42,392 nt of DNA from positions 1 to 42,392 of IMG/VR virus record IMGVR_UViG_3300046048_000288, one strand, 5' to 3'. Source of the stretch: a virus. The position numbers were made by a program, and so were the translations under genes. A model generated the notes under the pieces. It worked only from the letters and a program-made list of their open reading frames with translations. It was not told the origin of the DNA and did not search any database. Below are positions 13,620 through 42,392 of this stretch, piece after piece; within the stretch, counting starts at the first letter, position 1, and every line of letters starts with the position of its first letter.

Positions 13620-13801
13620 GTTCTAGTATTGTCTTACGCATAGGTATGGCAGATATTATATCTGGTGGTTATAAACTCCGAGATAAGCAAGGTGGAGAGA
13701 TAGAATTACCATTCTCTGATCTCGTTATCCTCTATGATGATGCCCTACGCAGAGCTAAAGAACGTAAGTTTACCAAAAACCGGAGAGAAGTAAGTGAGTG
13801 A
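13616..13801 (+). CDS. Small hypothetical protein
   Basis: This 61-residue product overlaps the previous gene by ATGA and the methyltransferase fusion start by eight bases. It has a beta-type start (SIVLRIGMADII), an acidic middle and a basic C-terminal helix (RRAKERKFTKNRR). Its coupling suggests co-expression with the ParB-methyltransferase. No family recognised. Confidence 0.55.
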   Translation: MSSSIVLRIGMADIISGGYKLRDKQGGEIELPFSDLVILYDDALRRAKERKFTKNRREVSE

Positions 13802-15212
13802 ACTTTTAAACATTCCCGTAGGCGAGATAGGACTCACCGACCGGGCCAGACAGGAGTACCATCTAGATGAGGATTTTCTTAGCAGCATCCGAGAAAAAGG
13901 AGTTATTCAGCCAATTACGGTCAAGCGCAATATCGAAGGATCCGATACGCGGTTTTCTGTTCTTGCTGGAGGACGAAGATATAGCGCAGTTAAACAACTT
14001 GGAATTGAAACTATCCCCTGTCTCGTTCGTGACTCAGAGGGGACTCTTGACGATCGGGAAATCGAATTCCTTGAAAACGCTCAACGCAGAGATCTCACCT
14101 GGCAAGAGCGACTAAAGCTCGTAAACGATATCAATAACCTAATGGCGGAGAAGTATGGTGAACGCGGATCTCAATCAAAAACGGCCAAATTCCTGGATAA
14201 ATCTGTTGGAGGAATTACAAGAGCTGTACAACTCGGTCAACTCATATCTAAGTTTCCGGCACTTGGCGCTTGTACGACTGAAGATGAAGCTGTCAAGCGA
14301 GGCAGAAAAATCCTCGAAGCCGCTCTTGTCAAGACTATGGCTAAAACGCATCGAGCAGAATCAGGAGAGCCTGACCCAAGCGGAAGCCCATCTGGAGAGA
14401 CTCCAGAAAGAAAGCATGACGATCCTTACCTCCGCCTGGCAAGAGCTGCAGAAAAGCATTACCGAATAGGTTCCTGTTTCGACGGTATGCAGGAAATGAT
14501 AGATAATGGTATGTCACCACCTATCATTCTCGTCGAAGTAGATCCTCCATATGGCATTGACCTACAAGAACAAAAGAAAGGTGATAGCTCCAAAGAACTA
14601 GATATTTACGAAGAGATACCGCGTGACCAATACGAAGAATGGACGTACAAACTGGTTGACTATCTTTACAAAGTTACGCCACCGAATACGCGAGTTATCT
14701 ACTGGTATGGCCACGAGTGGTACGATCTTGTTGCTAGAGCTTTGCGTGAAACTGGCTTTAGCATTGATCCGATTCCTTGTATTTGGAACAAGGGTTCTGG
14801 ACAAACGAACGACCCTGACAGATATCTTGCACGGACCTACGAGACCTTCATTGTTGCTACCAAGGGTACAGGGACTCCTATCGCAAAGCGAGGACGATCT
14901 AACGTTTTTACACATGCTCCTGTACCACACTCGAAAAAGTACCACCCGACTCAGAAACCTCTCGCGTTGATGGAAGATATTCTAGAAACCTTCGGTTGGC
15001 CTGGTGGTATCGTTCTTTGCCCATTCCTCGGATCTGGTGTAACACTTCGTGCCTGCTATAACAAAGGTATGTTACCTTTCGGCTGGGAATTAAATGAAGA
15101 AAACGTCGATCCATTCTTAGCCGCAGTTCAAGGCGATATCGACGCATACACTGAAGCTTTGGAGAAACCGCAGGATTCGGAGGTAGGCGAGATTCCCTTT
15201 AATAAGGAGTAA
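13794..15212 (+). CDS. ParB-like domain fused to a DNA methyltransferase
   Basis: 472 residues from a GTG start. Residues 1-180 are a ParB/Srx-type domain with GGRRYSA (59-65), ENAQRRDLTWQE (94-105) and an HTH-like segment. After a Ser/Pro/Gly linker (about 188-208), residues 209-450 form a beta-class DNA methyltransferase. DPPY (250-253) precedes the target region, HPTQKP lies at 384-389 and FLGSG at 411-415 begins the AdoMet-binding part. DPPY favours N6-adenine, though N4-cytosine is possible. ParB-methyltransferase fusions occur in phages and mobile elements. No partner restriction enzyme lies nearby, so self-protection or regulation is likely. Confidence 0.85.
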   Translation: MSELLNIPVGEIGLTDRARQEYHLDEDFLSSIREKGVIQPITVKRNIEGSDTRFSVLAGGRRYSAVKQLGIETIPCLVRDSEGTLDDREIEFLENAQRRDLTWQERLKLVNDINNLMAEKYGERGSQSKTAKFLDKSVGGITRAVQLGQLISKFPALGACTTEDEAVKRGRKILEAALVKTMAKTHRAESGEPDPSGSPSGETPERKHDDPYLRLARAAEKHYRIGSCFDGMQEMIDNGMSPPIILVEVDPPYGIDLQEQKKGDSSKELDIYEEIPRDQYEEWTYKLVDYLYKVTPPNTRVIYWYGHEWYDLVARALRETGFSIDPIPCIWNKGSGQTNDPDRYLARTYETFIVATKGTGTPIAKRGRSNVFTHAPVPHSKKYHPTQKPLALMEDILETFGWPGGIVLCPFLGSGVTLRACYNKGMLPFGWELNEENVDPFLAAVQGDIDAYTEALEKPQDSEVGEIPFNKE

Positions 15213-16829: not shown

Positions 16830-17849
16830 ATGTTTATACCTGAGAAGGCTCCAGACCCCAGGCCTATAGAAGGGTCACAAGAAGCTGAAATCATGATTCT
16901 GGGAGATAATCCAGACGGTCATGCAATGAAAGCTAAGAAACCTTTCGGGCATGGAGCTGAAACTGTTTTACAAGATTGTATCCACCAGGCGGGAATGGTT
17001 AGACCGGAGGTTTGCATTACAAACTTCTTATTCGACACCACCAGACTAGAGAACTTCTTCGTATATAACAGTAATAGCTTGGGGCCTTCTCAGATCAAAC
17101 GTGACATATCAGGATATAAGGCAAGTCTCTGGTCGTTGATAAAACAAGTTAAGCCCAAGGTCATAGTTACCCTAGGTGAACTCCCTTGCTACATCTTAAC
17201 AGGGGATCAACATCTATCTAAGATCAGAGGCTACCCTTATAGTCTGAAAGATAAGGATACCGGCGAACATATCTGTTGGGTTATCCCATCGCTTCATCCT
17301 GGTAAAATGATCTGGAGCAATTACGAGTGGCGTTACTATCTCGCCCACGACATTCGGAAAGCTAGAAAGATCGTAGAGAACCCTTCCCTTTGCCATCCCA
17401 AGATGGACATTCAAATAGCTACGTCCCTGAAAGACATAGCTGATATGTGTGCTCAGATCAAGGCAGCAAAGGTAACTTCCTGGGATATAGAAGTCTCCAA
17501 CTTCCACACAAGCTGTATGGGCTTTAGCTGGAAAGACCTACACGGAGTCTCTGTCCCGATAGACAGTCGTTGGACGGAACTGGAAGAGATAGAAGTATGG
17601 AAGATGATGAACTCCATCCTATCTGATCCAGACATAACCAAGATCACACAAAATGGCAGCTTCGACGTACAGTTCGTAGCGCAAGAGATAGGTATCTTTG
17701 TGAAAAACTATCAGATAGATACCATGATATCTCACTCAATTCAATTCCCTGATTTCTTAAAGGGATTAGGTTTCCTTGGCAGTATCTATACGTATCACCC
17801 ATACTGGAAGGATGAATTGGAAGGTAAGTCAATCAAAAGCGAGGATTAA
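16830..17849 (+). CDS. UDG-superfamily domain plus 3'-5' exonuclease domain (N-terminal part of a split family A polymerase)
   Basis: 339 residues. Residues 18-185 resemble a family 4/5-like uracil-DNA glycosylase fold: GDNPDG at 25-30 replaces GEAPG, PFGHG at 38-42, ITNFLF at 63-68, and SLHPG at 154-158. Residues 195-330 are a DnaQ-like exonuclease with D219/E221 in SWDIEVS (motif I) and N275/D279 in QNGSFD (motif II). The domain stops before motif III, which is found at the start of the 18488 gene. SPO1-type polymerases carry the same UDG-exo-pol order in one chain. The UDG catalytic residues look altered, so glycosylase activity is uncertain. Confidence 0.8.
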   Translation: MFIPEKAPDPRPIEGSQEAEIMILGDNPDGHAMKAKKPFGHGAETVLQDCIHQAGMVRPEVCITNFLFDTTRLENFFVYNSNSLGPSQIKRDISGYKASLWSLIKQVKPKVIVTLGELPCYILTGDQHLSKIRGYPYSLKDKDTGEHICWVIPSLHPGKMIWSNYEWRYYLAHDIRKARKIVENPSLCHPKMDIQIATSLKDIADMCAQIKAAKVTSWDIEVSNFHTSCMGFSWKDLHGVSVPIDSRWTELEEIEVWKMMNSILSDPDITKITQNGSFDVQFVAQEIGIFVKNYQIDTMISHSIQFPDFLKGLGFLGSIYTYHPYWKDELEGKSIKSED

Positions 17850-18244: not shown

Positions 18245-18488
18245 GCTTACCGTAAAAGAACTGCATGAGGCATTAGAAGATATACTAGATATAAAGTATA
18301 TTGTCAGTAATGCAGAAGTAGAAGGTGATCCACCGAAAATGGCACATTCTCTGCATAATAACTTCCCGGTGTTTATCTCCATCAAAGCTCATCGTCCAAT
18401 TCCATTCGGACAACACATTACCCTATCTGACTTCGAGCTAAAGCAAGGTGATGGAAACTTCTACATTCTCGAAGGGATTATAGAGTAA
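18237..18488 (+). CDS. Small gene 3 of the insert between polymerase halves
   Basis: This 83-residue product starts eight bases before the previous stop and shares its final A with the polymerase ATG. Acidic helical N-terminus (ALEDILDIKYIV), then beta-type segments (FPVFISIKA, FYILEGII). The stop-start coupling suggests it is translated with the polymerase subunit. No family recognised. Confidence 0.55.
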   Translation: MSRLTVKELHEALEDILDIKYIVSNAEVEGDPPKMAHSLHNNFPVFISIKAHRPIPFGQHITLSDFELKQGDGNFYILEGIIE

Positions 18489-20047
18489 TGGAAAGCCAAT
18501 CTAAATGGCGCACTAGCGATAGTACATTACACTACAATGCTAAAGACGCCATTGTAACTCGGGAACTTGTCTCCTGTTTTCATGGGGATATAGATAAACC
18601 AGCAGCCAACGATAGGCCAACATTCCGTAGTACCTACGATCACACTATCAACCTTTTCGAACCCTGTATGTACATGCAGTCTCGAGGTATTAAGATAGAT
18701 CGTGAGGCACTAGAACAGGAGAAGATCAATGTCGCAAGACGAATTGAAGAACTTTCGGCTGAAATTAACAATCTCTGCGGACGGACGATTAATCCTAATT
18801 CCCCAGCAGATCTGCAAAGATACTTTTATGTGGAAAGAGGTATCCCTCCTTACACTAAGCTCAACTCTAAAAAAGAACAAAGCATCACTTGCGATGATCT
18901 TGCACTTTCACGACTCGCTAGAGGCACATCCGCTCGTGCCCCTCTTAGGGAAGCTTCTCTTATTCAAGAGTGGCGTAAACTCTCTAAACTCAAGGGTACA
19001 TATCTCGAAATCTCCTTCGATATCGACAGTAGACTACGATGTAGTTATAATCCCAGAGGCACTAAGTTTGCCCGACTAAGTTCATCTAAAACCGTATTCG
19101 GAACTGGAATGAATATGCAGAATCTCCACCCTGCATTCCTTTCCTTCCTAGTCGCAGATGAAGATTGTATCTTCCTGGACATTGACAAAAGCCAAGCGGA
19201 ATGGGTAGTCGTCGCTTATGCTAGTGGTGACGAGAACATGATCTCTTGCCTTGAACGTGGAATCGACCCTCATGCCTATACTGCAAGTCAAATGTTTCAT
19301 ATGCCGGTCGATCTTATCAAGGAGGAAGGTAAACTACTCGGACACGAGAGCGATCCTCTACTTGTACAAAAACAGAGGTTACTTCACCCCGAACTTGCGA
19401 AAGCTATTGCGGAGAAAAAGTGGCTACCTCGAACAATGTCGATGCGGCAGTGTGGCAAGAAATCCAACCACGGGCTTAATTACGATGAGTCCCCTAATAT
19501 GTTTGGTCTCATTAACGAAATCTCCGTCGGAGAAGCTAAAGTTATCGTTGACTTTTATCACAGAACTTACCCCGGAATAAGAAGATATTATGAATGGACC
19601 AAGCGAGAACTTTCCGACCACGGAAGAACTTTGGTTAATCTATTCGGCCGCCCTTGTCGCTTTCTTGGACGATGGGACTCAGAACTTTGGAAGTCAGCGT
19701 ATAGCTACATTCCTCAGTCAACTGTTGGAGAACTCGTCAATCGCGCGCTTTGCGGAATATATTATGACTCTTCGGATGATACCCGCAACCTCGAAGTCAT
19801 GCAGCAGGTCCATGATAGTATTAGACTGCAAATACCCCTTGACAGTCCCAATCTCGGAGCCGCTATTCAAGCAGCAGCCAGATATCTCAACCCCACCCTG
19901 AATGCTTCAGGTCGAGAGTTTCAGATCGCTAGCGACTTGAAAGTTGGTTTCAACGCGAGAGACATGGAGGAAGTTCCTTTAGTCTCCGATTCTGCAGAAC
20001 AGGCAAGATTGGTATTAGAAAAGGCTAAGGAACTTCGTGGCAACTAG
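18488..20047 (+). CDS. Family A DNA polymerase, catalytic part with exonuclease motif III
   Basis: 519 residues. The first 30 contain LHYNAKDA, in which Y16 and D20 match exonuclease motif III, so the exonuclease site must be completed in trans by the 16830 product. The polymerase core carries motif A (D231/D233, SQAEW), motif B (R320, K324, NY 331-332) and motif C QVHDS (440-444). All catalytic residues are present. There is no UDG or full exonuclease domain. The two parts together would equal a normal UDG-exo-pol chain of about 850 residues. The last 11 bases overlap the helicase gene. Confidence 0.88.
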   Translation: MESQSKWRTSDSTLHYNAKDAIVTRELVSCFHGDIDKPAANDRPTFRSTYDHTINLFEPCMYMQSRGIKIDREALEQEKINVARRIEELSAEINNLCGRTINPNSPADLQRYFYVERGIPPYTKLNSKKEQSITCDDLALSRLARGTSARAPLREASLIQEWRKLSKLKGTYLEISFDIDSRLRCSYNPRGTKFARLSSSKTVFGTGMNMQNLHPAFLSFLVADEDCIFLDIDKSQAEWVVVAYASGDENMISCLERGIDPHAYTASQMFHMPVDLIKEEGKLLGHESDPLLVQKQRLLHPELAKAIAEKKWLPRTMSMRQCGKKSNHGLNYDESPNMFGLINEISVGEAKVIVDFYHRTYPGIRRYYEWTKRELSDHGRTLVNLFGRPCRFLGRWDSELWKSAYSYIPQSTVGELVNRALCGIYYDSSDDTRNLEVMQQVHDSIRLQIPLDSPNLGAAIQAAARYLNPTLNASGREFQIASDLKVGFNARDMEEVPLVSDSAEQARLVLEKAKELRGN

Positions 20048-32977: not shown

Positions 32978-33955
32978 CTATGCGGTGTCAATGTCGTGGA
33001 TAACGCCCTGAACCCGACGTCGATTGGTCACAAACGAGCAAGCCGTCATAATGTGAGCAATCTTATCGTTAACCTGCTCCGGGACTGGCTTCCACTCAGT
33101 CATGTCGAAGTAGACACCCGGATCATAAACGAACCACAGGAAGTTCGTGTTCAGGAAATACATCCTCGTGTTGGCGATTTCCGGAGACCAGATCATCGGA
33201 ATACCCTTGAAGGTAACCGTGTCGAAGCCAAGTTCGGCAAGCTTCGTGTTCTGGACTTCCAGTTTGTCGTACGCCGCATCTTCGTAGTACTCATACGGCG
33301 TCTGACCACACAAGATGATGTCCGGACGGTCAGCTCGACGATTGTTCGTAATCGTATTGAGCAAGGTCCGCATCTTGGGAATACCATTCGTAGCGAAGGA
33401 CGAGCTAGCAAGGGTTGCTTGCTGACTTCTCCACCAGCTATAGGTACTCTGATTAATACCACCAACAGTTGTCGAGGCCGTCGGATCGTCCGGGACAAGC
33501 AATTGCAAGCCATCAAACGCACCACCGACTGCACCGGCACCAGCTGCCAGAGTTTCCTCCAGCGTGTCGATCAGAGAGTTCTGTGCGTTGTTCAGCTTAG
33601 CGTTCATCAGATCCATGATCTTTGTCTTACCACGGTTCTTCTGATCGTCCGTACCGAAACGAACAACGGGCGCCTGGAGATAGTGCCAGTTATAGACTGC
33701 TTCCGTCAGGAACTCGAAGTCGGCCATGGTAGTCGTGCCGCCCTTTCCGATGAACCCAACGTTGTCATTCTTAGCATATTCCAGCTTTTCGAGAATGTTA
33801 CGGCCGCCGACTTGAGTCTTCATTCGACCTTTGTCACGCATCCAGAACCAGAACGGAGTCGCATCGAAGATGTTATCCGCTGCTGTGTTTTTCTGATGCA
33901 GCCAAGTGGTCGAGTAAAGATTGTCTAAGGCCTCACTTAGTGTTTGTACAGGCAT
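32978..33955 (-). CDS. Major capsid protein
   Basis: 325 residues. It follows a scaffold-like gene and precedes a decoration-like gene, in a block with portal and terminase. The N-terminal region contains LYSTTWLHQKNTAADNIFD and a WFWMRDKGRM arm; a loop region lies around 65-90; the C-terminal half contains PDIILCGQTPYEYYE and a TFKGIPMIW strand, as in many HK97-fold capsid proteins of podoviruses. Codon use is strongly biased (GTC, ACC, CTG), as expected for the most abundant virion protein. Confidence 0.82.
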   Translation of the reverse strand: MPVQTLSEALDNLYSTTWLHQKNTAADNIFDATPFWFWMRDKGRMKTQVGGRNILEKLEYAKNDNVGFIGKGGTTTMADFEFLTEAVYNWHYLQAPVVRFGTDDQKNRGKTKIMDLMNAKLNNAQNSLIDTLEETLAAGAGAVGGAFDGLQLLVPDDPTASTTVGGINQSTYSWWRSQQATLASSSFATNGIPKMRTLLNTITNNRRADRPDIILCGQTPYEYYEDAAYDKLEVQNTKLAELGFDTVTFKGIPMIWSPEIANTRMYFLNTNFLWFVYDPGVYFDMTEWKPVPEQVNDKIAHIMTACSFVTNRRRVQGVIHDIDTA

Positions 33956-33999: not shown

Positions 34000-34695
34000 T
34001 CAACCGTTATCTTCACCGGCAAGGACCGGGTTATCACCAAAGGCTTCTTCCCAGGCTTTGTCGGCAGCTTCCGTTCTCGTCATGTCTTGTTTGTTTTCAT
34101 CCAGATTCCCATCCTTGCCTTCTGAATGTTGTCCAGGTCTCATTCCGCCAAAACTTCCTTTTTTCGACGCACCTTTTACATCGTCAATACTTGCGTACTT
34201 GGTATCCAGTTCCTTCGCTTTCTCAGGATTGGCAGCCTTCACAAGTGTGTAAGCTTCCTGAGCTGAGAGTCCAGAAACTGAGTTTATCTTTTCTTTGATC
34301 TCAGGAATCCAATCATCGAAATCTTTGTGCGCTCCACGGAATTGGTTAATATCCATCGTGAGCGCTGTACGATGAGATACTTCCGTAACCTCGTCTACTT
34401 GTTTCGAGATACGCTCGGTTACACCATCAAGCATCTTTCGAACACCACCGAACATATGTTGCACAAGCTCTGCCTGTGTCATAGTGTTAATGTCGTCGTC
34501 AGTTACTTTCTTCTCCTCCTGTTTCTGAGGAGCAGACATCTTACCAATGCTTTCCGTCAACCCCTGAACTGAAGCTTGGGTAGCTTGAATACCCTTGCCA
34601 AGTGCCGAAACGACACTCATCAATTGCTTAAACTGGGGATTACTTGAAAGGTCGAGTTCGTCTTTCTTTGTCTCTTTGGTCTTATCGTCAGGCAT
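34000..34695 (-). CDS. Scaffold protein
   Basis: 231 residues, highly charged and helical (Lys/Glu/Asp/Gln), with few aromatics and a long coiled-coil-prone region (about 25-120). It has a Gly/Lys-rich linker near 175-205 and a C-terminal helix. It sits immediately upstream of the major capsid gene. Scaffolding proteins of podoviruses have this composition and position. No protease domain is seen. Confidence 0.7.
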   Translation of the reverse strand: MPDDKTKETKKDELDLSSNPQFKQLMSVVSALGKGIQATQASVQGLTESIGKMSAPQKQEEKKVTDDDINTMTQAELVQHMFGGVRKMLDGVTERISKQVDEVTEVSHRTALTMDINQFRGAHKDFDDWIPEIKEKINSVSGLSAQEAYTLVKAANPEKAKELDTKYASIDDVKGASKKGSFGGMRPGQHSEGKDGNLDENKQDMTRTEAADKAWEEAFGDNPVLAGEDNG

Positions 34696-35025: not shown

Positions 35026-35310
35026 CTAAACTCTATTTTCACAATAAACGCTGGTTAAACCGTTCTCTGCCGCTACATCCATAGCTTCTTTTCTATCCCT
35101 GATGTAGACAGGATCAGGAGCTATATGTTCATGCATCCCTTTTGGAAAAGCTTCACGAGCCCATACCTGCCTTGTAGGGGTCAGTAGTTGCTTAGCTTTT
35201 ACCTCGCATTCCGTGCAAATAGCATTCGCTACTGCATGGGAGTGAAAAGATAAAGGGATAGAAACCTCTTCTTCTGCTCCACATTCAGGACAACCAAATT
35301 TATAGATCAT
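35026..35310 (-). CDS. FmdB-like zinc-ribbon protein
   Basis: 94 residues. CPEC (residues 7-10) and CTEC (32-35) frame a short beta ribbon starting MIYKFGCPECG, as in FmdB-type putative regulatory proteins. The rest contains VYIRDRKEAMD. Such genes are often found between portal and capsid genes of phages, with unknown function. It starts with ATGA overlap at the portal stop. Confidence 0.65.
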   Translation of the reverse strand: MIYKFGCPECGAEEEVSIPLSFHSHAVANAICTECEVKAKQLLTPTRQVWAREAFPKGMHEHIAPDPVYIRDRKEAMDVAAENGLTSVYCENRV

Positions 35311-37049
35311 TGTTGTGCTCCAGCTGGTACTTGAGGTCCAAGTAGAAGTTGCGGCATCTGCTGAGCTACTTGCTGTACGATTTGCTGAAACTGCTCAACT
35401 GATATAGGCTTAGAAGGCATACTTCCCATACCATCAGGGATACCTCTAATCATATCGTCAAATTGAACACCATGTAGTTCACGCAGAAGATAACTAGTTA
35501 GTTTGAAAGGATCGATCAATGGGTTTGATTTAAGCTGTTGATACAACATCAAAGCTCTGTTTTCCCGAACATCTCTCGTTTCTGGCAGAGATTGATCAGG
35601 ATCAGCTTTGACTATGTAGTTGATCTTGGATAGCATCTTCGGCTGGAAGTGAATCCAGAAAGGTACACCGCCTGGACCAACTATTTCTTCAACCTGCTCG
35701 CCTGTCCAATGATCAAAGATGATCGGATGGAAGTCTTGCACTGTCTCTACAAGCATGTCTGCGATCATATCGCGTCGTTCGTCAACACGAATGTCGCTAG
35801 CCTGCTTAACTACACGAGTCTCGAGTGCAGTTGGTGAGCGTGAACCCTCTTTGAACTCACCCATCTCGTTACGTGAGAAGCCGAGAGTTTCTCGAATCTC
35901 GCCTAGGAGATCCACATCAGCTTTCATCAAACCAGCAGGAATGTCTCCGCTCTCGATGATTTTGACAGCATTATCTGTGTTTTCCTGTGTCCAGATGATT
36001 GGATTGACATCTGGTCCTACGAGTTTAGCTGCCTCAGTTTCCGATATAGCTCCGATCTTAGCCAGAACACGGACGATAGACATACGTCTATGGTACATCT
36101 TATACGTCTTGATCTCATTACCTTCTCTCTGTAATGGATCCAAGATCTTCGCATCAGGAACGCCCCATACACGTTCATCGTCATCGTTGAACACCAAGAT
36201 GGATGGGACATTGATTCTTAAACGAGCAAACTCATCTCCTTCGAATAGGTGAACTTTGCCACCTGCATGTGGAGATATGACGAAAACAGTTCCGGTTTTC
36301 TTATCACGAATCTCATAGAGTTGAGTAACGTCTGTTTTCTTTGTAATAGTTCGACGGGAACCACCTACCATTTCAGAGATAGATCCAGCACCCATATCCT
36401 TAGTGTTTTTCAACCGAGGATCGTCTTGAATGTCCGCTACGTCACGCTCAATGATAAAGCAGGACCAACGTGCATCTTCGAAGTAATCCAACCCTGCAGG
36501 GAGGACGAAGTTAGCTGGACTATTACGTAGGAACCATGGCATATTCGGCATTATGTCATAGTTATACTCCACGAAGTTAGATAGCCTAGCTTCGATAGAG
36601 GCAGCGTCTACTGGACCAGTATCTCCAAATGCTTGCGGAGTAGCTTGATATTGAGAACCGAAGCCTTTCTTTCCAACAGCAGTACCGAACATCCAGGCAT
36701 CTTGCACTAGACGTTTCATCTGCTTTTTGATCTTCATAGAGCGAAGAAGCTTATTATCTGTACGCTCCAGGATCTTAGCAAATACCGCACCTTCTGCGCC
36801 TTGCGTAGCTGGGCTAACAGAGATAGCTGGATTACGGAAGTAGATTCTCGGCACAGTCGAACGGATCATCTTAAAGAAGATGTTCGTTGGCAGAATATCT
36901 GAACGCCAATTACCACGGTAATACTGTCGCCACGTATCCCAATTTTGCTCGAATGCTGAATTCTTCCGATACTCTAAGCCATATCGGATTTGCTCAAGCC
37001 AGTAACCTACATCAGGTTTACCGTTCTTGTAGCCGTTAGACTTGGCCAT
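35307..37049 (-). CDS. Portal protein
   Basis: 580 residues. Begins with a helical region (WLEQIRYGLEYRKN), then WDTWRQYYRGNWR and NIFFKMIRSTVPRIYFRNP, a segment typical of podovirus head-to-tail connector proteins. Long helices follow around 390-480, and the C-terminus is Gln-rich (QFQQIVQQVAQQMPQL), as in portal barrel tails. It follows the terminase block, overlapping the ATP-grasp gene by 14 bases. It forms the DNA entry ring and terminase dock. Confidence 0.85.
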   Translation of the reverse strand: MAKSNGYKNGKPDVGYWLEQIRYGLEYRKNSAFEQNWDTWRQYYRGNWRSDILPTNIFFKMIRSTVPRIYFRNPAISVSPATQGAEGAVFAKILERTDNKLLRSMKIKKQMKRLVQDAWMFGTAVGKKGFGSQYQATPQAFGDTGPVDAASIEARLSNFVEYNYDIMPNMPWFLRNSPANFVLPAGLDYFEDARWSCFIIERDVADIQDDPRLKNTKDMGAGSISEMVGGSRRTITKKTDVTQLYEIRDKKTGTVFVISPHAGGKVHLFEGDEFARLRINVPSILVFNDDDERVWGVPDAKILDPLQREGNEIKTYKMYHRRMSIVRVLAKIGAISETEAAKLVGPDVNPIIWTQENTDNAVKIIESGDIPAGLMKADVDLLGEIRETLGFSRNEMGEFKEGSRSPTALETRVVKQASDIRVDERRDMIADMLVETVQDFHPIIFDHWTGEQVEEIVGPGGVPFWIHFQPKMLSKINYIVKADPDQSLPETRDVRENRALMLYQQLKSNPLIDPFKLTSYLLRELHGVQFDDMIRGIPDGMGSMPSKPISVEQFQQIVQQVAQQMPQLLLGPQVPAGAQQ

Positions 37050-38223
37050 TTATGTAGCTCCAATTCTTAAGCTGCTCAAATGTGGCATTGGCACTTGCGG
37101 CTAACATAGGGTTGTAATGTTTCTCAGGGAACTTAACAGCTTCCACTACTCCATAGACACGTTCGCAGGCTTCACTAACAGTTCGACCATGAGCAGTAGC
37201 TGTTAGGATAACCTTCCCTTGTCCTGTGTATTGGAAGTCGTTATCTTTTTCCTCTACATTATGAAACACAAAGTGCTTTCGCCTCTCGTCGTTGATTCCC
37301 AAAATGGGAGCTCCGCTCATCTGTTCACCTACACATTTAGACTGAACAGCGGCTACAAAATCTTTAGTTTTCACTGGCTTAAAGCTGTTGGGGAAAGCCA
37401 GACCGTTTAGAAACATACCTAGTTCATCTTGAAAGAACTCAAGTATGGAATAACAGAGGGGGAACTTCCACCCTATGTGCATTTGGTTAGCTACGAAGCT
37501 ATCCTTCTTCAGAACTAGACCAATAGTTACAGGACCGTGATACTCTGTTTGTTTGAAGTAAGGGGTTAGCTTCTCAAACGTTTCCTTTACAAGCGAACTT
37601 GTATTTGGCAACGGAGCCATCATGTCGTAACCGTACAGCTTGGTATCTAGATCTGGTGAGATAGAGAAAGCGTCTAACCATGCCATTCCGTCAAACCAGC
37701 CAGTGATGTTTGCTTGCAATCCAATCTCTATCTCCTGAAAGAGGATCTTAGTGCCAATCGGTACCCGGGTCACACCCCAAGCTAGCCAATCTCGGTAGTC
37801 GCACTTAAACTCTGTATTGCCGTACTTGATCACCGTCCTTCGAGCGTCCCAGTGCAACACCTGCTCGATTGCTTCACTAAGATCCCCTAGAACCTCAGTT
37901 CGCGGTACAGGAACATCAAAACGATTAAATAGTGTGTATTGCTTCACATAGTCATGATTGGGGATAGCGATAAACTCGCTAGCACCTATGACTGGTCGGT
38001 TATAGTACTTAGCGCGCTTATCCAGGTAATCCCAAGGAGCATCCACTAGTACAAACCTACTATTCTGTAAAGCTTGCATCAAGTTGTCAGTCGCTTCAAA
38101 TAGATCGTTCGACTTAAGTCTAAGAGACTTAGAGAACACCTCTACATCGTGACCCTCACTAGTTAATCGGTCTGCAAAGCCTAGAAGGCTACCATCAGTT
38201 ACTATTAATATGTCCATCGTCAT
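37036..38223 (-). CDS. PurD (GARS)-like ATP-grasp protein with degenerate active site
   Basis: 395 residues following the domain order of phosphoribosylamine-glycine ligase: a Rossmann-like N-domain (1-85), an RPVIGASEF strand-turn (76-84), an ATP-grasp core with K133 in VIKYG and E164/E166, and the C-terminal GKVILTATAHGRTVSEACERVY segment (336-357). However, the glycine-rich loop after K133 is absent and 244-255 reads VANQMHIGWKFP where PurD has E-x-N-x-R-x-G-D-P-E. Catalysis of the normal reaction is therefore doubtful. It overlaps TerL by ATGA and the portal by 14 bases, so a packaging-linked role is likely. Confidence 0.7.
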   Translation of the reverse strand: MTMDILIVTDGSLLGFADRLTSEGHDVEVFSKSLRLKSNDLFEATDNLMQALQNSRFVLVDAPWDYLDKRAKYYNRPVIGASEFIAIPNHDYVKQYTLFNRFDVPVPRTEVLGDLSEAIEQVLHWDARRTVIKYGNTEFKCDYRDWLAWGVTRVPIGTKILFQEIEIGLQANITGWFDGMAWLDAFSISPDLDTKLYGYDMMAPLPNTSSLVKETFEKLTPYFKQTEYHGPVTIGLVLKKDSFVANQMHIGWKFPLCYSILEFFQDELGMFLNGLAFPNSFKPVKTKDFVAAVQSKCVGEQMSGAPILGINDERRKHFVFHNVEEKDNDFQYTGQGKVILTATAHGRTVSEACERVYGVVEAVKFPEKHYNPMLAASANATFEQLKNWSYINGQV

Positions 38224-39821
38224 TCCATTGTGTAGTCGGTTACGTCAATATGCTGTTTTGGGATGGGTCCGTCACCCATTGCCCGAGAGTGGTTTAATTT
38301 CTTTATACTCGCTAACATACCCTCCAGAGAGAAAGGATCATGAGCTAGGCTATTGATCATTCTCCCTTTAGTTTCCAAGTTACTCTGTAGGTGAGCTTTC
38401 ATAGCTCCCATCAGGCCAACTGCAAGGCTCATTACACGGTCGTCATGACAACCAGCTTCGGCTTCGAGTTTGCCAGTATCTTTTTCAACAAACGTTCCCA
38501 ATTCATCCCGTAAGGCGGGGCTATGAATAGTGAACTTTTCTCGAAATTCTCGTCGTAGGTTGTTAATGAGCAAAGGTTTCGTTTTAGCTGTGGTTTGGTA
38601 TCCATATTCTAGTACCTTGTCAGTATCTTCTCTCCGGCTATACAGAAGCCATTGTGGATAGATATCTTTTAATTGCATTAACGTCATTCCACCGTGGTTG
38701 TTCGTTTCCACAGTGATGAAAGCATTTCCGAACATCTCACCTAGTGCTGCGAGTTTATAAGCAAACATATCAGGAGAGATGTTATCAGCAACCCACTCAC
38801 CCACTTGTTCATTCTTGGTGATATTGATAATCTGGGCAACTGACCTATCACGACCAACGCCACCAGCCACGTCAGCACCAATAGCATAGACATTATCTTT
38901 AGCAACCCTGAGTTCATCTTCTAGTACCCATAGATGTGCATCGTGTCGTACCCAACGCTCAGTTGGCTCGTAGTTGACATTCTGGAACAGACTATACCCA
39001 GTACTCTGGAAGCACTCATCTAGGGTTACTGGATACTCCTGATGGAACTGACGTAAGTCATAATCCATTTCTTCCAGTTTGTCCCTTCGCCATGCTATCT
39101 GACCAGGAGTAAGACCGGCTTTAATCAACCGAGGTTCTTCCCACTCCTCTTTCAGATTCATCATCAGGTCGTTTGCTTCTTCAGCTGATAGCTCCCTAAA
39201 ATACTCAGGAAACTTCAACCAGTTGAAGAAGTGCAATCGCCAGCGGCCTTTACCCTCATAAGCGTTCATGCAACCACGATGATAGTAATTGCCAACGCCG
39301 TTGCCAGTAGACTCTTCTATTATAAGCCCATTATACGGTACTGCCTGGTATAGACCAGCCGTGAGCGACTTTGGGTCCGGCCAGTAAGCGATCTCTGAAC
39401 AGTGTAGGTCAGTAATCGTATCACCACGTCCAAATTTCCTAGCTCCCGCCGTTCCGATATAGAACATAGAACCAGTCTTCGGAAAGGTAATCTCATTCTT
39501 ATTTGCAAGCTTAGTTTGTGCTTTGGGTCCCTTGATGTTTTCCAACATGTAGTGGACTTTTGATAGCATTCTTTGAGTAGACTCTTTATCGTGGGAAATG
39601 ACCACACATCTGCTGTTTCGTTTATGTAGACACTTAGCAGTGAAGTTACCAAGAACATAGGTCGATATACCCAACTGACGAGCTTTTGGTACCCGGTTTC
39701 GAGCGGTTAACATAGAGTCAAGCATTGCCTGCTCTCTGTTTAGTTTAAAGTCAACGTCGTTCCCATCCTTATCAGGGATACGGAACATTGACTCTATGAT
39801 AAGCCGCTCAGCGGTAGCCAT
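38220..39821 (-). CDS. Terminase large subunit
   Basis: 533 residues from an ATG (39821-39819) that lies one base after the previous stop; a GTG at 39860 adds 13 residues but has no ribosome site. The ATPase part has KARQLGIST (46-54) as Walker A variant and ITDLHCSEIAYW (137-148) with E143 as Walker B/catalytic glutamate. The nuclease part has IGADVAGGVGRDRS, ITVETNNHGG and HDDRVMSLA carrying the acidic metal ligands. It packages DNA into the prohead. Whether by headful or cohesive ends cannot be told from the sequence. Confidence 0.9.
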   Translation of the reverse strand: MATAERLIIESMFRIPDKDGNDVDFKLNREQAMLDSMLTARNRVPKARQLGISTYVLGNFTAKCLHKRNSRCVVISHDKESTQRMLSKVHYMLENIKGPKAQTKLANKNEITFPKTGSMFYIGTAGARKFGRGDTITDLHCSEIAYWPDPKSLTAGLYQAVPYNGLIIEESTGNGVGNYYHRGCMNAYEGKGRWRLHFFNWLKFPEYFRELSAEEANDLMMNLKEEWEEPRLIKAGLTPGQIAWRRDKLEEMDYDLRQFHQEYPVTLDECFQSTGYSLFQNVNYEPTERWVRHDAHLWVLEDELRVAKDNVYAIGADVAGGVGRDRSVAQIINITKNEQVGEWVADNISPDMFAYKLAALGEMFGNAFITVETNNHGGMTLMQLKDIYPQWLLYSRREDTDKVLEYGYQTTAKTKPLLINNLRREFREKFTIHSPALRDELGTFVEKDTGKLEAEAGCHDDRVMSLAVGLMGAMKAHLQSNLETKGRMINSLAHDPFSLEGMLASIKKLNHSRAMGDGPIPKQHIDVTDYTME

Positions 39822-39822
39822 T

Positions 39823-40104
39823 TTATCTGATAGCCATGTTAAGAGAGAACGTTGTGCCACCAGTGATGAAGGCTCGAAGCTGCTTAGCTTTCAAACCAAC
39901 AACTGTCATAGCACCAGCGGCAGAGAATGAGATACCGGAGACTATGCCCCAATTCGTCCCGTCTGGGCTGGCTTGCAGTTCAATAGTGTTAGTGTCGAAT
40001 GTACCCCAGGCATAAACGGTTATGCCATCACGAAGTTCTGTTTGACCGGCAACATCTACTGCGGTAGCAGCACCGGTGTCGGTCTTTGCACTAGCTAGTA
40101 ACAT
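39823..40104 (-). CDS. Small virion-type protein, paralogue of the 1183-1464 product
   Basis: 93 residues, equal in length to its paralogue and sharing YAWGT, LQxSxD, VSGxSF, GA, IxGG and SLN at matching positions. It is inserted between terminase subunit genes, an unusual place for a structural gene. The product is probably a small beta-sandwich head component. The next gene starts one base after its stop. Confidence 0.7.
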   Translation of the reverse strand: MLLASAKTDTGAATAVDVAGQTELRDGITVYAWGTFDTNTIELQASPDGTNWGIVSGISFSAAGAMTVVGLKAKQLRAFITGGTTFSLNMAIR

Positions 40105-41169: not shown

Positions 41170-42392
41170 TACACAATCTTGAAGGTATCGCCATTACCTG
41201 GGGCAGTGGTAAGGGCAGTGAACGTGAGCAACCCGCTTGTGTTTGCATAATCAGTTATATCTGTAGCTTCCCCTTCGCAAGCACCAGAAGTCCAGATGAT
41301 GATTCGACCGATGAGTTGGTCGTCAGCATAACCGGATAGATTAGAGGTAGCTTGGGTGGTTGAAAGTGTCCCTGTTGCAGCAGCGCCAGTTATGATGCCA
41401 AGCGATAGAGTGGCTAGTTTCGTACTATTGCTATCTATCTCCGCTCGGACCTCAGCAGCAGTTGGTAGAGCCGCGAGCTGCGTATCCAGGTCAGCAGATG
41501 CCATCCCAATCGCAGTACGAATACCAGCAGCGTCAAGATCGTTAAGAGCGGCGATACTAGCAGCAGTAGCGAGAGTAGCAAGAGTAGTTGGGTAATCGTC
41601 ACTCTGTAGCTCGTTTGTATCAGCTAGGATGGAGGTTACATCGCTTTGCAATGCAGTCAGAGCAGTTGGATAGTCATCTGTCTGTAGTTCATTAGTATCA
41701 GCCAGAATACTAGCAATCTCTGTAGCTATCTCACCGAAGGAACCAGCAGTGACATGACTCGATTGAACTGCATCCCATACAGCAGCGGCTACGGTTGCGG
41801 CAGTTGGATCGTTTAGCGCAGCGATAAGTCCAGGCACATCATCTGTCTGGAGTTCATTCGTATCTGCGACGATAGCAGCAAGTTGTGTTGAGTTGCTATC
41901 TATCTCTGCTCGAATAGCAGCTGCGGTTGGAACCGACAGATTGCCGATGATGTTACCGGCAGTACCAGCACCGTATGCACCCGGAACAGAAGTTGCCCAA
42001 GGATCAGCTGCACCACCAGCGGCGGCTAGTTTATTACCAGCCGTATCAGCTGTAGTGTGAGCAGCAACTATATCTTCATCCCAAACGGCATCTACTATAG
42101 CAGCTAGACTTGCTGAGGATACCGTAGCTCCGTCAGACCCAGTTAGGGTATCCAAATCAGATTGGGCCGTAGCAAGAGCGGCGGCAGTAGCTAGACTGGT
42201 GAGTGCGCCAGAGTTGGGAAGGGCATCGGTAACGGCTTTAATCGCAGCAACTTCTGTGTCGATATAGCCTGCTATGGTCGATAGCGTTGAGGCTAGAGCC
42301 GTTAGACCGTCTGTGCCATTGGCGAGATCCGCAGCGGCCGCACTGCGCCCAAGGGTAAACTCGCCTATTACTTCACCAACTACAATTACACC
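41169..42392 (-). CDS. Tail fibre-like repetitive structural protein, C-terminal part (gene starts at 377 across the junction)
   Basis: This is the remainder of the 496-residue protein whose start lies at 377 on the circle; the final 110 bases here duplicate 1-110. It is Ala/Thr-rich with three copies of I-(V/L)-ADTNELQ-(T/S)-DD, two copies of RAEIDSNST-(Q/K)-LA, and a DPWATSVPGAYGAGTAGNI segment. I recognise these elements from repetitive proteins of many phages, often with appendage or fibre functions. The last 80 residues are a compact beta domain (IIIWTSGACEG, LLTFTALTTAPGNGD). Likely an elongated trimeric virion protein. Confidence 0.75.
   Translation of the reverse strand, partial: GVIVVGEVIGEFTLGRSAAAADLANGTDGLTALASTLSTIAGYIDTEVAAIKAVTDALPNSGALTSLATAAALATAQSDLDTLTGSDGATVSSASLAAIVDAVWDEDIVAAHTTADTAGNKLAAAGGAADPWATSVPGAYGAGTAGNIIGNLSVPTAAAIRAEIDSNSTQLAAIVADTNELQTDDVPGLIAALNDPTAATVAAAVWDAVQSSHVTAGSFGEIATEIASILADTNELQTDDYPTALTALQSDVTSILADTNELQSDDYPTTLATLATAASIAALNDLDAAGIRTAIGMASADLDTQLAALPTAAEVRAEIDSNSTKLATLSLGIITGAAATGTLSTTQATSNLSGYADDQLIGRIIIWTSGACEGEATDITDYANTSGLLTFTALTTAPGNGDTFKIV
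42283..42392. repeat. Right copy of the 110-base terminal repeat
   Basis: Identical to 1-110 except at 42385. Removing it gives a circle of 42,282 bases with the fibre gene intact. Confidence 0.9.

Follow-up and report, generated by a model that had tools for sequence, protein, structure and literature searches.

A PurD-like predicted pseudoenzyme encoded between terminase and portal genes in a group of uncultured tailed phages

A 395-residue protein with the fold of glycinamide ribonucleotide synthetase (GARS, PurD) is encoded on the minus strand at 37036..38223 of the window, which is the whole 42,392-nucleotide stretch of virus DNA analysed here. The protein is predicted to be a pseudoenzyme, and its gene lies between those of the large terminase subunit (TerL) and the portal protein. 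We consider it somewhat probable that it belongs to a phage-specific family derived from PurD that is a core of the packaging and head operon, and that its body retains a non-catalytic function. Catalysis appears to be dispensable and the protein not, at least in the sampled lineages with a dead active site. The whole analysis is built on metagenomic contigs and predicted models.

The gene, its operon and its relatives

The pseudoenzyme open reading frame (ORF) starts with ATG, and the plus-strand frame of the same interval has many stops, so that the coordinates given in a preliminary description hold with the strand read as minus. The gene starts inside the stop of the upstream TerL gene (38220..39860, minus; PHROG 2, E = 4e-25) in an ATGA overlap of 4 nt, and its 3' end overlaps the start of the downstream portal gene (35307..37049, minus; PHROG 156, E = 1e-10) by 14 nt. 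The GGAG motif ahead of the portal start sits within the pseudoenzyme gene. These overlaps agree with the coupling to both neighbours that had been proposed, and the same slot recurs throughout the phage group. The genes that follow in the conserved order, all on the minus strand, encode a small Cys-rich (zinc-ribbon-like) protein (35026..35310), a scaffold-like or internal head protein (34000..34695; weak PHROG 2497 match, conserved position) and the major head protein (32978..33955; PHROG 9953, E = 2e-45). PHROGs also recognise an endolysin in the window; the pseudoenzyme itself has no significant match in PHROGs or PADLOC. Positions 1-110 and 42283-42392 form a terminal repeat (109 of 110 bases identical), and with one copy removed an ORF would run in frame across the ends, which makes it probable that the genome, of about 42.3 kb, is complete. 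Elsewhere in the window, at 16830-17849 and 18488-20047 (both plus), a uracil-DNA-glycosylase-like domain is joined to a 3'-5' exonuclease of DNA-polymerase type, and a separate gene downstream encodes the polymerase A domain; all 23 genomes compared contain a homologue. A ParB N-terminal domain is fused to an N6/N4 DNA methylase at 13794-15212 (plus).

Searched as a single sequence, the window protein had no match in phages, plasmids or IMG/VR. The family was reached through TerL neighbours: loci L003 and L004 carry a protein of 418-420 residues in the same slot that matches GARS_A and GARS_C. An alignment-based scan of IMG/VR gave 161 relatives, 80 of which were retrieved, and further scans added more. 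Six contigs matched among bacterial and archaeal genomes, all metagenome-assembled, two of them with phage TerL/portal gene order. Nearly all retrieved loci of the main group have the order TerL, PurD-like protein, portal, Cys-rich protein, scaffold, capsid. When loci were selected by TerL alone, 44 of 48 had the gene between TerL and portal; the other four represent three contigs (L089, L093 and L094) that have lost it, and it is thus not universally essential. One gene-less slot (L002/L089:2697-3334) holds two small ORFs, one of which has, by eye, a membrane segment and a coiled coil. The commonest gaps (-4 nt to TerL and -16 nt to portal) fit translational coupling. The PurD-like gene is present in 23 of 23 genomes compared, as are TerL, portal and DNA polymerase, a count that is partly circular because many genomes were chosen for having the gene. 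At most one copy was found in each of 42 records searched for a second (divergent copies appear as two or three matched stretches), which rules out a second intact copy elsewhere as an explanation of dead copies.

Distant relatives (L083, L085, L182-L194 and L005) have tail, lysis or other genes as neighbours, and in the wider family the gene is therefore not bound to the packaging slot. Some of them (L182:4467-6050, also L183-L186) are intact PurD-like proteins with a C-terminal extension that weakly matches HAD phosphatases and could hint at the substrate. In one distant group, small proteins that look GroES-like by eye are encoded convergently with the region of the PurD-like gene (L187:5804-6133, L189:6540-6932 and L193:6246-6599, all minus). 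A second group has a variable protein between the PurD-like gene and portal (L133:3370-5019, L137:6464-7678, L149:8427-9587, L075:6239-7258 and L130:9260-11083); its N-terminal part differs between phages and in some resembles, by eye, nucleotidyltransferases or ADP-ribosyltransferases. Weak phage matches H32-H37 come from human faecal 'Bacteriophage sp.' and Enterococcus phage records, which we assume may hold cellular purD as contamination. A large phage family with a PurD-like gene between TerL and portal is apparently undescribed: a literature search, to which the 2009 amidoligase survey (PMC3268129) did not belong, found no PurD-like gene between terminase and portal.

Fold, active site and purine synthesis

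The preliminary description had recognised a PurD-like ATP-grasp protein with GARS domain order, and structure prediction supports this at the level of a predicted model. AlphaFold2 models of the window protein and of an intact relative (L012) have pLDDT values of 92.7 and 96.1, respectively, and the 15 best PDB matches (Foldseek) are all GARS for both; the best match of the window model is 2qk4 (E = 3e-23), with TM scores up to 0.78. Profile-profile comparison aligns the window protein with the intact family over 391 columns (E = 6e-60), and a profile of 25 relatives matches the GARS 2yw2 end to end (positions 1-400, E = 8e-39). GARS_C matches residues 301-370 of the window protein (37114..37323, minus; E = 4e-6, below the Pfam cut-off), the region best retained in dead members. 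Comparison with the reference viral proteins of BFVD gave no full-length PurD-like match (best TM 0.46). The phage family has in common with GAR synthetase PurD (TIGR00877; GARS_A PF01071, GARS_C PF02843) the three-domain order, the ATP-grasp core and the C-domain; it differs in being virus-borne and in a packaging operon, and the window copy lacks the active site. Other viral proteins of the same superfamily, the ATP-grasp peptide ligases of phages and NCLDVs (the R2K family and others), have a different domain architecture. The sections of PMC7824862 drawn on here propose that such ligases modify proteins and report no fixed TerL/portal link for R2K-type ligases.

Mapping of conserved residues across phage homologues separates the window protein from most of its relatives, whose site is intact. 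Members of the intact group hardly vary at K136, STEGW, NHTxEEK, GPNTGCMGN, GPxDxN and ExTxRxGYDA (L003 numbering), whereas the window protein keeps two of ten core residues. One is K133 (37825..37827, minus), which the preliminary description had recognised and which aligns with K136 of L003; Q163 is also kept, as is the strand GWFDG (residues 175-179; 37687..37701, minus), which reads STEGWFNG in intact relatives. The loss of the catalytic signature is confirmed by the alignment. The glycine-rich loop GPNTGCMGNV is deleted at about residues 192-203 (37615..37650, minus; boundaries approximate), and NQMHIG (residues 246-251; 37471..37488, minus) replaces the L-E-x-T-x-R segment of E-x-N/T-x-R-x-G, with loss of the metal and phosphate ligands. 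We take the E, N and R of the PurD ExNxR motif to be these ligands; intact phage relatives have T in place of N as the second metal ligand. The family is bimodal, with at least 139 loci that have at least nine of ten core residues and about 28 that have three or fewer. These locus counts include near-duplicates; where distinct sequences were computed, about 92 intact proteins have at least nine of the ten chosen residues, and at least 17 dead proteins were found. The sole relative with an intermediate score (L166:2279-3524) is spread over three reading frames and is probably a broken or mis-assembled intact copy.

Intact phage members share with PurD the GPNTGxMG loop, the KR pair and ExxxRxG. 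They differ from E. coli PurD in lacking the GGREHA N-loop, in having EEKR for DHKR and in having ExTxRxGYDA for ExNxRxGDPE. RxGYDA and EEKR occur in almost all intact members, whereas five aligned GARS and E. coli PurD have GDPE and DHKR. The intact members are, judged from these residues, probably ligases and not demonstrably GARS; they may be ATP-dependent carboxylate-amine ligases with a specificity unlike that of GARS. The suggestion of a new ligase is plausible for the intact relatives; for the window protein, in which the residues required for ATP-dependent ligation are missing, it is not supported. Homologues with an intact GARS site had been named as evidence that would count against a role outside purine synthesis. 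The relatives go halfway: they have an intact ATP-grasp site, but GARS signatures are altered and the context is one of packaging.

Automatic annotation would name the gene as an auxiliary metabolic purD, and a viral role in purine synthesis draws on the GARS fold and domain order and on virus surveys that list purD among auxiliary metabolic or purine-metabolism genes (PMC11097641, PMC12043954). This reading is scarcely credible here. NCBIfam purD equivalog scores are 24.8 bits for the window protein and 61-86 bits for intact relatives against a cut-off of 288 (E. coli PurD, as control, scores 631), and the GARS signature is altered. The 52 window ORFs contain no purine-pathway family besides the PurD-like protein, which bears out the view that no other purine gene is present and that the function is not purine synthesis. 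Nor were companion families of the phosphoribosyltransferase, PurN-type/formyltransferase or PurM/PurL-type/AIRS kinds found in 20 phage genomes with the gene, in a search in which controls were detected.

Loss of the site and retention of the body

On a maximum-likelihood TerL tree the dead state requires nine changes, at least six of them forced by starred (well-supported) branches. The window falls in a starred TerL clade with three other dead full-length proteins (L086, L169 and L170). An additional analysis gave a similar result. Many dead copies have deleted the ATP-binding subdomain (about residues 112-173) and kept the C-terminal domain. Horizontal swapping of TerL and the PurD-like gene was considered as a cause of the repeated-loss count and rejected: dead copies resemble intact ones of their own TerL group, and dead L137, for example, scores 442 bits with its intact sister L133 and at most 234 with any dead copy. 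L171 is an exception that groups with the window clade by its PurD-like protein and less clearly by TerL. Genes for an AAA-like protein, a transglycosylase-domain protein, an exonuclease, a GNAT protein and one unknown protein occur in 5-7 of 15 intact genomes and in none of eight dead ones; a partner gene lost together with catalysis was set aside as a candidate because genomes are too few and confounded by kinship. Pseudoenzymes in general have lost catalytic residues while the rest of the protein stays under purifying selection, as here; what sets this case apart is that a single family of phage genes has lost the site independently at least six times, in several instances through removal of the nucleotide-binding subdomain. 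In the literature searched, 'pseudoenzyme' and 'ATP-grasp' occurred together in a single paper, on TTLL12.

The gene could be an auxiliary enzyme past its use and on its way out, as in L089, L093 and L094, whose slot contains either no gene or other small ones. Recurrent site loss and deletions, and complete absence of the gene from three contigs, fit such decay. Dead copies also evolve faster than intact ones: in pairs with TerL 50-60% identical, dead proteins are 30% identical and intact ones 54%, which suggests that constraint has been relaxed over long times. Decay is nevertheless improbable as a full account. Both close dead pairs (L086/L169 and L139/L147) have a dN/dS of 0.066, an approximate value given high dS (1.6-1.7), which is as low as those of TerL (0.09 and 0.05) and portal (0.077 and 0.056) in the same pairs and indicates that these two pairs are not decaying. 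The calculation covers those two pairs, the window gene having no relative that is close enough. Every dead lineage keeps a long intact reading frame, the window protein, L086, L169 and L170 form a coherent clade of dead full-length proteins, and model confidence is high. Conserved positions are kept in dead copies at 71% in the C-domain, 15% in the ATP subdomain and 23-29% in the catalytic segments. Retention of K133, Q163 and the overall fold in a confident model could also mean that the window protein remains active as an enzyme, through a rearranged active site and with other chemistry. We regard this as highly improbable, since the window protein has neither of the two metal ligands, nor the phosphate arginine, nor the glycine-rich loop, and the ATP subdomain is deleted entirely in other lineages.

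The main rival is a ligand-binding or decoy role, in which dead forms act as a binding protein or sponge for the putative ligand of the intact enzymes, or for a host factor, without catalysis. The intact enzymes would then make or consume a small molecule (e.g., a phosphoribosyl or aminoacyl compound) relevant to host defence or takeover, and the packaging operon would simply provide late expression. The C-terminal YRxDIG/EARRRVYRT region is conserved in forms without the ATP subdomain, and relatives in other phages occur amid tail and lysis genes instead of beside TerL, both of which are consistent with such a role. Against it, no PADLOC match was found, and in the window's own clade HYNPML replaces the YRxDIG residues; on balance we consider it unlikely.

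These patterns are most simply explained if the N- and C-terminal domains have a second function that is not catalytic. The PurD-like family would be a core part of a TerL-[PurD-like]-portal-scaffold-capsid operon in tailed phages of about 40-48 kb, and the second job, probably binding of a partner late in infection, would suffice to keep the gene once catalysis became dispensable, as in the window phage. That job would most likely lie in packaging or head assembly because of the translational coupling to TerL and portal, as the preliminary description had suggested; this is the leading candidate, although operon position is no proof of function there. It is possible, and we propose it tentatively, that a former metabolic ligase now serves the packaging motor or procapsid as a core accessory factor throughout the phage group. 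The essential function would then be non-catalytic, and the active site, or even the whole ATP subdomain, could for that reason be discarded repeatedly.

What seemed a stray purine gene becomes a candidate for the core gene set of an uncultured group of phages, and a 'viral purD' counted among auxiliary metabolic genes may have a role other than purine production. When one enzyme loses its site repeatedly and independently yet keeps its body, a natural experiment separates catalytic from structural function, and it singles out the C-terminal domain as the most promising target for tests. Should the protein prove to act together with TerL or portal, it would represent a new type of accessory factor for packaging or for the head.
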